Assembly: GCF_004011835.1 (NCBI RefSeq)
Contig: NZ_RKLN01000003.1
Span: 124,001 to 188,000 of the forward strand
Origin: Rhodococcus spongiicola
Lineage (GTDB): Bacteria > Actinomycetota > Actinomycetes > Mycobacteriales > Mycobacteriaceae
Length of the DNA: 64,000 bases
Reading direction: 5' to 3'
The translations under genes and the position numbers were made by a program. Position 1 is the first letter of the stretch. Each line of letters begins with the position of its first letter. Below are positions 16,353-48,880 of this stretch, piece after piece. Under the pieces are notes generated by a model. That model did no database searches, was not told the origin of the DNA, and saw nothing but the letters and a program-made list of their open reading frames with translations.

Positions 16353-16724
16353 ATGGACGACACCAAGGACCCCACGAGGGCCGACTCCTCAGGACTCGCC
16401 GCGGAGACCGATCCGGCCGACCAGCCGAGTCTTGCGCGCCTGCGGTCCGAATTGGACGCGATCGACGCACGACTGCTCGAGGACATCCGGGACCGCATCG
16501 ACGTGTGCGTTCGGATTGCAGAGTGCAAGCGACGTCAGCGCATCCCCATGATGCAGCCGCAGCGAGTGGGCCTGGTCCACGCCCGCGCCGAGCAGTACGC
16601 CCGCGACAACGGGTTGTCGGCGGAGTTCCTGCGAGAGCTGTACAACGTGGTGATCGCCGAGACGTGTCGGATCGAGGACGTCGTCATCGGGTCGAACGGT
16701 GACCCGTCGCGCACACCAGGCTGA
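16353..16724 (+). CDS. papB: Chorismate mutase-like protein (probable ADC mutase, PapB)
   Basis: 123 aa, all-helical AroQ type: LARLRSELDAIDARLLEDI (helix 1 with substrate Arg), RIAECKRRQRIPMM, QRVGLVHARAEQYA. The family catalyses chorismate to prephenate. PapB homologues rearrange 4-amino-4-deoxychorismate to 4-amino-4-deoxyprephenate. The second role is inferred from the operon: it starts a four-gene plus-strand set with a PabAB fusion, a prephenate-dehydrogenase-like gene and an N-oxygenase. GCGAGG lies upstream of the ATG. Sequence alone does not separate PapB from an ordinary AroQ mutase. Confidence 0.8.
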   Translation: MDDTKDPTRADSSGLAAETDPADQPSLARLRSELDAIDARLLEDIRDRIDVCVRIAECKRRQRIPMMQPQRVGLVHARAEQYARDNGLSAEFLRELYNVVIAETCRIEDVVIGSNGDPSRTPG

Positions 16725-16731
16725 TGGCATC

Positions 16732-19005
16732 ATGTCGACCCGAACACTCTTGATCGACAACTACGACTCGTTCACCTACAACCTGTACAGCCTGTTGTCG
16801 GAGGTGAACGGGCGTCCACCGGTCGTCGTGAAGAACGACACCGACTGGGCGTCGGTGCCCTTGGACGACTTCGACAACATCGTCATATCCCCCGGTCCGG
16901 GTCGACCGGACCGCAAGCGTGACTTCGGGATCAGTGCCAGGGCGATCGCGAACCGGCAGATTCCGGTGCTCGGGGTCTGCCTGGGGCATCAGGGGCTGTG
17001 TCACCTGTTCGGCAGCGCTGTGGGCTTGGCTCCGGTGCCGATGCACGGGAGGCTGTCGGATATCCGGCACATCGGGACCGGGATATTCGAGGGCATTCCG
17101 TCCCCGTTCCGGGCGGTGCGCTACCACTCCCTGATCGTCGAGGACCTTCCGCCCGAGCTCGAGGCCCAAGCCTGGACCGACGACGGGCTGCTGATGGCGG
17201 CGAAGCACCGCCTGCACCCGTTGTGGGGCGTTCAGTTCCATCCCGAGTCGATCTGCACGCAGTACGGCCGCGAGTTGCTCGGCAACTTCCGGGATCTGAC
17301 GCCGACACGGTCCGGACCTGCCTCCCGGCCAGAACCCACCCGGCAGTCGTCGAACGCCCGGGGCGGGAAACCGAAGTACGTCGTGCACAGCAGGCGTGTC
17401 GACCGCGCGGTTGATCCGGCATCGGTCTACGGACGCCTGTTCGCCGACGGCCCGGACAGCTTCTGGTTGGACGGCAGCGCCGCGATCGAAGCGGAGTCGC
17501 GCTTCTCTGTGATGGGCGACTGCTCCGGGCCACTGGCGGAGTCCGTCACCTACCGAGTCGCCGAGACCAGCGTGTGCGTCCACCGTGCGGGTCGCCCAGC
17601 CGAGCGGGTTCACCAGCGGATCTTCGAGTACATCGACGAACAACTCAAGCAGCGGGCGGTTCCCCCGTCCCCCGATCTGCCGTTCGCCTTCGGCCTCGGC
17701 TACATCGGATACCTCGGATACGAACTCAAGGCCGACGTCGGCAGCCAGTTGGTTCACACGTCGCCGACCGCGGACGCGGCGTTCGTGTTCGCCGACCGCG
17801 CGGTGGTGATCGACCACGTGGAGGGAACCTGCTACCTGCTGGCGCTGAGCGAGGACCCGGATGATCCTCGAGTGCCGGAATGGTTCGCGCACATCGAGGC
17901 CCGGATCCGCGAACTCGACGAGGCCGTCGAATCCCCGCCGCCCCACCCCCTGGTGAAGCTCGAGGACGACACCAAACCCCGAATGCGCCACAGCAACGAC
18001 GAATACCTCGCGCTCATCGGGCAGTGCCTCGACGAGATCCGGTCGGGCGAGTCCTACGAGGTGTGCCTGACGAACGCGGCGACGGTCGACCGGGCGATCG
18101 ATCCTGTCCGCAGCTACGAAACACTGCGCGAGATCAGCCCCACCCCGTACAGCGCGTTGCTGAAATTCTCCGGGGTGTCCGTGCTCAGTGCGTCGCCCGA
18201 ACGCTTCCTGCGGATCGGTGCCAACCGGGTCGTGGAATCCAAGCCGATCAAGGGCACCCGTCCGCGGCACTCGAAGCCCGCGGAGGACGAGGCGCTGCGT
18301 CAGGATCTGCTCGACAGCGAGAAGGACCGCGCAGAGAACCTGATGATCGTCGACCTCGTCCGCAACGACCTGTCGCGCGTCTGTGTGCCTGGCTCCGTGC
18401 ACGTCCCGAAGCTGTTCGACGTCGAGACCTACGCCCCGGTGCATCAACTGGTGTCCACGGTGCGTGGAACCCTGCGCGACGACGTCTCGACCGTCGACTG
18501 CGTGCGCGCCGCATTCCCTGGCGGTTCGATGACCGGTGCCCCGAAGCTACGGACGATGGAGATCATCGACAAACTCGAGGAGGGGCCCCGGGGTGTGTAC
18601 TCCGGTGCCATCGGATACTTCTCGATCAACGGCACCGCCGACTTCTCGATCGTGATCCGCACGATGGTCGCTACGGAGGACCAGGTGACGTTCGGGGTCG
18701 GAGGCGCGATCGTGGCCCTCTCCGACCCGGAGGAGGAGCTCGAGGAGACGATGGTCAAGGCGGTCACGATGCGGCGCTGCCTCTCGGTGACCTCGACCAA
18801 TGGAGTCACGGCGACCTCGGGTAACGGGGCCGGCTCGAGCGATGGGGCTACAGCGGTCGCCGGCGATGGAGCCACAGCGGTCTCCGGTGACGGAGCCACA
18901 GCGACCTCGGGCGACGGAGCGGCGGCGACCTCGGGCGACGGAGCGGCGGCGACCTCGGACGACCGGGTCGTCGGCGAGGTTTCGGCCAGGGACGGTGATC
19001 GGTGA
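16732..19005 (+). CDS. papA: Fused 4-amino-4-deoxychorismate synthase (PabA-PabB type, PapA)
   Basis: 757 aa. Residues 1-200 are a class I glutamine amidotransferase: LLIDNYDSFTYNL, nucleophile loop GVCLGHQG, and HPES for the His-Glu pair. Residues about 220-690 are the chorismate-binding domain, with SGESYEVCLTN, PIKGTRPRH, DLVRNDLSRVC and AFPGGSMTGAPK. The Lys in PIKGT is characteristic of aminodeoxychorismate synthase; anthranilate synthases have PIAGT. The product is 4-amino-4-deoxychorismate. No lyase (PabC) follows, so the context favours p-aminophenylalanine over folate. The C-terminal tail is an odd Gly-Asp-Ala-Thr repeat encoded by 24-bp units. GTG of papC overlaps the stop. Confidence 0.9.
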   Translation: MSTRTLLIDNYDSFTYNLYSLLSEVNGRPPVVVKNDTDWASVPLDDFDNIVISPGPGRPDRKRDFGISARAIANRQIPVLGVCLGHQGLCHLFGSAVGLAPVPMHGRLSDIRHIGTGIFEGIPSPFRAVRYHSLIVEDLPPELEAQAWTDDGLLMAAKHRLHPLWGVQFHPESICTQYGRELLGNFRDLTPTRSGPASRPEPTRQSSNARGGKPKYVVHSRRVDRAVDPASVYGRLFADGPDSFWLDGSAAIEAESRFSVMGDCSGPLAESVTYRVAETSVCVHRAGRPAERVHQRIFEYIDEQLKQRAVPPSPDLPFAFGLGYIGYLGYELKADVGSQLVHTSPTADAAFVFADRAVVIDHVEGTCYLLALSEDPDDPRVPEWFAHIEARIRELDEAVESPPPHPLVKLEDDTKPRMRHSNDEYLALIGQCLDEIRSGESYEVCLTNAATVDRAIDPVRSYETLREISPTPYSALLKFSGVSVLSASPERFLRIGANRVVESKPIKGTRPRHSKPAEDEALRQDLLDSEKDRAENLMIVDLVRNDLSRVCVPGSVHVPKLFDVETYAPVHQLVSTVRGTLRDDVSTVDCVRAAFPGGSMTGAPKLRTMEIIDKLEEGPRGVYSGAIGYFSINGTADFSIVIRTMVATEDQVTFGVGGAIVALSDPEEELEETMVKAVTMRRCLSVTSTNGVTATSGNGAGSSDGATAVAGDGATAVSGDGATATSGDGAAATSGDGAAATSDDRVVGEVSARDGDR
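18841..18960 (+). repeat. 24-bp in-frame tandem repeat at the papA 3' end
   Basis: Five consecutive 24-nt units (18841, 18865, 18889, 18913, 18937), each reading roughly GA(T/C)GG(A/G)GC... and encoding an eight-residue DGA(T/A)A(V/T)(S/A)G unit. A degenerate copy and a partial copy extend back to 18799. The units differ by few bases and the array stays in frame. It forms a flexible, probably disordered tail outside the catalytic domains. Confidence 0.9.
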
Positions 19006-48444: not shown

Positions 48445-48646
48445 TTACAAGCCCCCTGAGAGCGGAATGCCCTGGTTGCATCGGGACCACACCATATCAA
48501 GATCCCTAACTCGCACGGACAGTTTCCGAGCCACCAGAGAATCGGCATTTGTCCTGGTAGATAGATAGAAATGACCATTCGGCCCGAATCGTCCGGCCCC
48601 GTTCATGGGGGCCGGGTCGACGGTGCCTCGTTGCGCGGTCCTGCCT

Positions 48647-48880
48647 TTAATAGCGGGACGGATCATGCTCCCCCGCGGCAAGCAAAGTGCTCGGCCGTAG
48701 GTCCGTCCAATTGCGGTCGATGTAGTCGACGCATGCACGACGGGACGCCTTTCCGTGCGCTATTGCCCAGCCGGCTGGAACGTCGGCGAACGCAGGCCAC
48801 AGCGAATGCTGGTTCTTCTCGTTCACCAGCACCAGGTACTCGGTATCAGGGTCCTCGAAGGGGGTTGCTGGACTTGTCAC
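48647..48880 (-). CDS. MbtH-like NRPS accessory protein
   Basis: 77 aa from GTG 48880, with GAGAGG 7 nt upstream. It has the family core: YLVLVNEKNQHSLWPAFADV, PAGW, and the C-terminal RNWTDLRP. MbtH proteins bind and activate A domains. It is directly upstream of the NRPS on the same strand, 202 nt away, so it may have a separate or shared promoter. Length fits the usual 65-80 aa. Confidence 0.95.
   Translation of the reverse strand: MTSPATPFEDPDTEYLVLVNEKNQHSLWPAFADVPAGWAIAHGKASRRACVDYIDRNWTDLRPSTLLAAGEHDPSRY

Follow-up and report, generated by a model that had tools for sequence, protein, structure and literature searches.

The 64,000-nucleotide stretch analysed here (Rhodococcus spongiicola, contig NZ_RKLN01000003.1, positions 124,001 to 188,000; hereafter the window) carries a four-gene operon predicted to make and N-oxidise p-aminophenylalanine, facing the gene of a seven-module nonribosomal peptide synthetase (NRPS) that is, judging by its architecture and neighbours, of the IupU/humimycin A type. 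p-Aminophenylalanine is very probably the product of the operon. That the operon supplies this residue, N-oxidised before or after incorporation, to the humimycin-type NRPS, most likely for residues 1 and 3, is a reading to which we give about an even chance. Enzyme families, diagnostic residues, NRPS architecture and the conserved linkage of operon and NRPS are established at the level of sequence, and from these we infer the product, its N-oxidation level, the timing of that step and the residue positions. Both halves are of kinds already known and the NRPS family has been described; what appears to be new is the link of pap and N-oxygenase genes to humimycin, together with a re-reading of the Rhodococcus equi genes REQ23850 and REQ23860.

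A candidate p-aminophenylalanine operon with an N-oxygenase

The four genes stand head to tail, convergent with the NRPS gene. The start of papC overlaps the stop of papA, and that of the N-oxygenase gene overlaps the stop of papC.

16353-16724, + strand: papB, putative 4-amino-4-deoxychorismate (ADC) mutase, AroQ family (Pfam CM_2, 1.5e-15; substrate inferred)
16732-19005, + strand: papA, putative fused glutamine amidotransferase/ADC synthase (GATase, Anth_synt_I_N, Chorismate_bind 1.8e-90)
19002-19919, + strand: papC, putative 4-amino-4-deoxyprephenate dehydrogenase (PDH_C, 9.9e-9)
19916-20911, + strand: AurF/CmlI-type diiron N-oxygenase (AurF PF11583, 7.8e-53)

This gene set had been named in a preliminary description of the window; Pfam and TIGRFAM matches recover all of it on the strand given there (the profile scans of papA and the N-oxygenase used slightly longer frames). 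The papABC logic proposed at the same time holds as well, published or structural criteria placing the pap genes with p-aminophenylalanine enzymes and not with those of tyrosine or tryptophan synthesis. The best match of PapA in the PDB is 8hx6, named 4-amino-4-deoxychorismate synthase (842 bits), and the second chain, anthranilate synthase 1qdl, reaches only 213 bits. PapA shares the motif PIKGT with p-aminobenzoate synthase 1k0e, where 1qdl has PIAGT. Among 80 named loci, 46 have a papA match of at least 400 bits, and PIKGT is present in 45 of these, the sole exception (locus L018) being an incomplete frame. For PapC, absence of the invariant His197 of TyrA has been described as diagnostic (PMC1173090). 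The window PapC has NPMF (GINPMF) at the aligned place where solved TyrA chains have HPMF, the His of HPMF being equated with His197 by the aligned motif, and Asn occupies this place in all 61 loci with a papC match of at least 120 bits. The PDH_N match of papC (24.7 bits) lies below the PDH_N cut-off. PapB matches the chorismate-mutase-like family TIGR01803 with 82.7 bits (cut-off 73.35); we place it in this subfamily, where it would act on ADC. Its PDB matches are weak, with PchB at the top (1.1e-4).

The N-oxygenase matches PDB 5hyg with 260 bits and 130/301 identical residues (43%); we take this entry, titled 'Uncharacterized protein' in the database, to be CmlI. Residues E107, E142, E203, H230, E234 and H237 are kept in 80/80 relatives and H145 in 79/80, and these seven positions are presumably the diiron metal ligands. 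All these motif counts come from alignment, higher cut-offs and whole frames. They replace looser patterns in which PIKGT was found in 47 of 59 papA matches above 200 bits (11 without it, 1 with PLGGT), the papC motif was absent from 30 of 75 matches, and the ligand pattern matched 82 of 94 N-oxygenase loci. Overall, the pap genes are, by these signatures, p-aminophenylalanine enzymes, and PapA is an ADC synthase and not an anthranilate synthase; the identities of anthranilate synthase, chorismate mutase and prephenate dehydrogenase were dropped on motifs and PDB affinities. Three further chorismate-binding enzymes are encoded elsewhere in the same genome. The gene grouping is not due to chance, because the N-oxygenase is present in 14/14 genomes of the genus examined, including the 3.97 Mb source genome; the nearest named relative, Rhodococcus xishaensis, has it with a 98% match.

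An NRPS of the IupU/humimycin A type

The NRPS is encoded in one open frame of 8968 amino acids, which holds seven A3 cores, seven carrier motifs and a terminal thioesterase. With C, A, T, E and TE for condensation, adenylation, carrier, epimerisation and thioesterase domains, its layout is C-(half C)-A1-T / C-A2-T / C-A3-T-E / C-A4-T / C-A5-T-E / C-A6-T / C-A7-T-TE.

21538-48444, - strand: seven-module NRPS, IupU/humimycin type
48647-48880, - strand: MbtH-like protein, upstream of the NRPS (PF03621, 1e-25)
47035-48402, - strand: first C domain, a starter (acylating) domain by position (Pfam Condensation, 2.9e-53)
46240-47082, - strand: second, truncated C domain, C-terminal half (Pfam Condensation, profile positions 193-455 of 456 only)
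44731-46260, - strand: A domain of module 1, DALFVGAVVK; Tyr in synthetic humimycin A
38356-39867, - strand: A domain of module 3, DALFVGAVVK; D-Tyr in synthetic humimycin A
33748-35238, - strand: A domain of module 4, DALWVGGILK; Phe in synthetic humimycin A
30430-31923, - strand: A domain of module 5, DFWNIGMVHK (Thr), followed by an epimerisation domain
21541-22404, - strand: thioesterase domain of the NRPS (Pfam Thioesterase, 1.7e-26)

The codes of the remaining modules are DVWHFSLVDK (module 2), DGFFTGAIMK (module 6) and DAFFAAGIQK (module 7); in all seven codes the pocket positions are set by motif anchors of GrsA. We take the codes of modules 2 and 5 to be the usual Ser and Thr codes, and the HHxxxDGVSWR motifs after modules 3 and 5 to be of the epimerisation type. 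Modules 1 and 3 agree at 10/10 code positions and are 65% identical over the domain; other pairs among modules 1, 3, 4, 6 and 7 share 4 to 6 positions. The seven-module NRPS with its MbtH-like protein on the converging strand, and the two identical codes, were correctly read in the preliminary description, which knew of no described rhodococcal heptapeptide with this residue; the NRPS itself is of a described type, that of IupU/humimycin A.

The humimycin A NRPS of R. equi is the product of iupU and has a C-starter domain; an amidohydrolase, an N-acyltransferase, MbtH and 'sometimes a dehydrogenase' are conserved beside humimycin NRPSs (Ceniceros et al. 2017, PMC5550956). Humimycins are MurJ-directed antibiotics synthesised from genome prediction (PMC5550956, PMC12024397), synthetic humimycin A being acyl-Tyr-Ser-D-Tyr-Phe-D-Thr-Val-Val (PMC12024397, Table 1). 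The window NRPS shares with humimycin A and IupU the C-starter, seven residues, Ser2, Thr5, D residues at 3 and 5 and the thioesterase, and its cluster shares with theirs the amidohydrolase, N-acyltransferase and MbtH neighbours. A natural humimycin-type product may carry further modification (PMC5550956); one further source calls humimycins isolated in one sentence and predicted in another (PMC7502451). A five-module R. erythropolis NRPS is the subject of PMC13336364. Neither a link of pap or N-oxygenase genes to humimycin nor a re-reading of REQ23850 and REQ23860 was found in print, in a search that covered few subscription papers.

Across the genus, module order is kept and the codes are nearly identical. 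In eight fully read Prescottella NRPSs, DALFVGAVVK stands at module 1 in 7/8 and at module 3 in 7/8, and DAFFAAGIQK at module 7 in 8/8; this tally leaves out the P. defluvii NRPS, whose frame is broken, and two Prescottella NRPSs (G011, G018) with a first module beyond the sequence read.

The genes around operon and NRPS include the two syntenic neighbours and a small protein whose homologue adjoins the NRPS thioesterase in Prescottella equi, A. stalactiti and eight Rhodococcoides-type loci. Further upstream, at 3140-11041, an FAD/NAD oxidoreductase, a P-type ATPase and a 4Fe-4S protein look unrelated.

49146-50795, - strand: apolipoprotein N-acyltransferase homologue, syntenic neighbour (TIGR00546, 287 bits)
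50764-52380, - strand: amidohydrolase, syntenic neighbour (Amidohydro_3, 1e-78)
20969-21397, - strand: small Gly/Ala-rich protein with a signal-like start, between operon and NRPS (open reading frame, read by eye)

Linkage of operon and NRPS across genomes

Linkage was surveyed in 37 genomes with papA as the probe for the operon and the first C domain as the probe for the humimycin-type NRPS; the latter also picks up sister NRPSs of the same architecture. papA was found in 37/37 genomes and the humimycin-type NRPS in 34, the others being two Gordonia and R. corynebacterioides. In 28 of the 34 genomes with both, papA lies at most about 20 kb from the NRPS, in three arrangements. The two are convergent in ten Prescottella genomes, R. 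tukisamuensis and R. spelaei, with the NRPS 0.6 to 17 kb past the N-oxygenase, and divergent in Antrihabitans sp. YC2-6 and seven R. ruber-group genomes, the link in three of the latter coming from coordinates alone. In eight Rhodococcoides-type genomes, papA-papB stands at the thioesterase end of the NRPS, with papC and the N-oxygenase on other contigs or far away; for four of the eight, the link is read from a thioesterase fragment next to a contig break. At loci L024, L030 and L041, papC and the N-oxygenase were seen without papA-papB, in the vicinity of an ABC transporter and of what look like ribosomal protein genes (by eye, rpsJ and rplW).

A draw of 121 genomes of the family gave the N-oxygenase in 36, the humimycin-type first C domain in 34 and both in 31, that is, in 31 of the 39 genomes having either, at thresholds of our choosing (1e-85 for the N-oxygenase, 1e-150 for the C domain). 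Both the linkage and the co-occurrence counts are non-independent through shared ancestry.

Re-reading of the R. equi locus

In R. equi, a horse pathogen, Letek et al. 2010 (PMC2947987) describe REQ23860 (chorismate mutase), REQ23850 (fused anthranilate synthase), REQ23840 (prephenate dehydrogenase) and REQ23830 (hypothetical) as consecutive genes, a row that keeps its place in environmental rhodococci, and identify IupU as REQ23810. According to the same source, REQ23860 and REQ23850 are coregulated with the plasmid pathogenicity island, mutants of the two are impaired in macrophages and otherwise like wild type, broth growth included, and aromatic amino acid supply was proposed as their role. 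In P. equi DSM 20307, which stood in for strain 103S, the NRPS thioesterase is followed by the small protein, the N-oxygenase gene, papC, papA and papB. This order matches REQ23810 to REQ23860; therefore, REQ23830 would be the N-oxygenase and REQ23850 and REQ23860 papA and papB, an equivalence drawn from order and description. This suggests that REQ23860 and REQ23850, published as chorismate mutase and anthranilate synthase, are papB and papA, misnamed.

Proposed pathway and product

PapA would convert chorismate to ADC, PapB would rearrange ADC to 4-amino-4-deoxyprephenate and PapC would yield 4-aminophenylpyruvate, from which a host aminotransferase would form p-aminophenylalanine. N-oxidation of this residue to a hydroxylamine, nitroso or nitro group would be the work of the CmlI-like diiron enzyme, with the substrate either free or peptide-bound. 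Residue 1 would be acylated by the NRPS, which would assemble X1-Ser-D-X3-X4-D-Thr-X6-X7, to be released by the thioesterase. X1 and X3 would most likely be p-amino- or p-nitrophenylalanine, in the places where synthetic humimycin A has Tyr and D-Tyr. We lean slightly towards the view that the humimycin-type NRPS uses the p-aminophenylalanine of the operon; that modules 1 and 3 are the ones to take it is more tentative, a little short of an even chance.

This pathway suggests that the natural peptide differs from the synthesised humimycin. The most active humimycin analogues have Trp at positions 1 and 3, and changes are tolerated at three positions (PMC12024397); if a precursor operon was missed by the prediction, the true product would differ at two of these three. 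A bolder version, which we find rather unlikely, is that natural humimycins carry two p-nitro- or p-aminophenylalanines at positions 1 and 3, that the synthetics are close but wrong copies, and that REQ23860 and REQ23850 serve this pathway. The R. equi genes would then act through this peptide or another product of the pathway, not through aromatic amino acid supply. At the nitroso or hydroxylamine stage, two such residues two apart could form an azo- or azoxy-type bridge. With the re-reading, an R. equi locus published as virulence-associated and assigned to 'aromatic amino acid' supply would become a specialised-metabolite pathway open to testing, and the linkage across rhodococci allows the hypothesis to be tested in harmless species.

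Points against the pathway and rival explanations

Several observations weigh against delivery of the residue to the humimycin-type NRPS. The operon is unlinked to it in six of the 34 genomes with both (three opacus-group, two erythropolis-group and A. stalactiti), and in five of these six, those of the opacus and erythropolis groups, it adjoins another NRPS. The preliminary description had counted proximity as support and unlinking in relatives as refutation; the former stands in 28 genomes and the latter occurs in six. No A domain turned up in the 40 kb read around the operon of A. stalactiti, nor in the 40 kb read around the four genes in Gordonia alkanivorans and G. namibiensis, two genomes that also lack a humimycin-type NRPS. 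The code DALFVGAVVK or one-step variants of it occur in pap-unlinked NRPSs of R. koreensis, R. qingshengii and P. equi; no code unique to pap-linked NRPSs was found, DALF-type codes being common in rhodococcal NRPSs. The identical codes of modules 1 and 3 count in favour of the pathway; because this code recurs in pap-unlinked NRPSs, the two modules are only the probable users of the residue. Two CmlP-like A domains beside pap genes have the code DASMQSAVCK, assigned to p-aminophenylalanine activation from gene neighbours only, with 5/10 matches to modules 1 and 3. In the R. ruber group, the pap-linked NRPSs are six modules long, and their modules 1 and 3 bear different codes from those of the window. 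An isolated natural humimycin-type product was not found in the literature searched. Finally, an iupU mutation is cited as having no virulence effect (PMC2947987), and iupU deletion has been tied to low-iron growth (PMC5550956). The phenotypes of papA/papB and iupU mutants do not coincide, and any macrophage role of papA and papB may not run through the IupU peptide.

Some of these loci show further features. In both erythropolis-group genomes, the humimycin-type NRPS keeps its N-acyltransferase and amidohydrolase neighbours, and in R. qingshengii other open reading frames occupy the place that the pap operon holds in R. ruber. R. qingshengii and R. koreensis also encode sister NRPSs of ~9000 amino acids with humimycin-like module order and other codes. 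In R. ruber, R. zopfii and HNM0569, the six-module NRPS has four hydrophobic A domains that group as a single clade, a pattern resembling homogenisation inside the gene. Assigning module 1 or 3 of R. ruber by a tree rooted on a CmlP-like domain was given up as unreadable, the hydrophobic A domains forming one lineage-specific clade, and likening modules 1 and 3 to the CmlP-like code was set aside as weak at 5/10 positions. In the two Gordonia species, the pap and N-oxygenase genes lie amid what look like housekeeping genes.

One alternative, which we regard as unlikely, is that the operon feeds another NRPS, of the giant multi-gene rhodococcal or the nine-module opacus type, leaving the humimycin-type NRPS to use ordinary Tyr, the residue of synthetic humimycin A. 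Such NRPSs adjoin papABC-N-oxygenase in two erythropolis-group and three opacus-group genomes, which would fit, as would R. fascians-type genomes with papC-N-oxygenase beside a giant NRPS, a module 1/3 code that is not special to pap-linked NRPSs, and the differing phenotypes reported for R. equi papA/papB and iupU mutants. On the other hand, in four Prescottella genomes of one or two contigs, the likely giant-NRPS counterpart (frames of 6927-6975 amino acids, matched only by size and type to the 6940-amino-acid P. equi frame) lies more than 1 Mb from the operon, with the humimycin-type NRPS near, and in Rhodococcoides-type genomes papA-papB stay with the humimycin-type NRPS.

Slightly less likely still, the end product of the operon would be p-nitrophenylalanine or a derivative of it, a small molecule that stays free and has its own role, and the NRPSs next door would be incidental. 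The Gordonia and A. stalactiti loci speak for such a role, together with the presence of papA in 37/37 genomes against 34 for the humimycin-type NRPS and the host-related defect reported for papA/papB and not iupU mutants; yet the link to this NRPS persists through three arrangements, and the two co-occur in 31 of 39 family genomes with either. The annotation of REQ23860, REQ23850 and REQ23840 by Letek et al. 2010, with the macrophage defects of the first two mutants, would instead make the operon a redundant chorismate mutase, anthranilate synthase and prephenate dehydrogenase boosting the supply of Phe, Tyr and Trp. PIKGT with the affinity to ADC synthase, the lost TyrA His and an N-oxygenase within the operon make this very improbable, and REQ23860 and REQ23850 mutants are otherwise indistinguishable from wild type, including in broth (PMC2947987).

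Comparison with known systems

A p-aminophenylalanine-type building block enters NRPSs in the obafluorin and pristinamycin pathways, with different NRPSs and products. Chloramphenicol-type clusters (CmlP, papABC, CmlI) share with the window papA, papB, papC, an enzyme of the AurF/CmlI family and an NRPS, and the window N-oxygenase is 42% identical to that of such a cluster on a plasmid of Rhodococcus sp. H-CA8f. That cluster has one A domain (DASMQSAVCK), an MBL-fold protein, a DAHP synthase and a phenicol efflux gene, whereas the window has a heptapeptide NRPS and none of the last three genes in its operon. Two such sets were seen in rhodococci. A chloramphenicol-type-looking cluster on a plasmid of Rhodococcus sp. 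H-CA8f (NZ_CP023721.1, 229790-254692) comprises a diiron oxygenase, a CmlP-like A domain, an MBL-fold protein, papA, papC, papB, DAHP synthase and phenicol efflux, and Rhodococcus sp. 14-2470-1b (L201, ~5-18 kb) has a second, chloramphenicol-like papB-papC-papA set with an N-oxygenase, adjoining a CmlP-like A domain and an efflux-like membrane protein. Among Streptomyces-type relatives of the N-oxygenase, no NRPS-like A code was found within the stretches examined. AurF, the p-aminobenzoate N-oxygenase (PDB 3chh), has the same family and ligand positions as the window enzyme and a lower match than 5hyg (151 against 260 bits).

Unlike the product proposed here, the published humimycin is synthetic and was predicted with Tyr, D-Tyr and Phe, and the humimycin description in the available text of PMC5550956 names, beyond the conserved neighbours, only the occasional dehydrogenase, with pap genes and N-oxygenase unmentioned. 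In the type strain of P. equi, the same operon adjoins the same NRPS.

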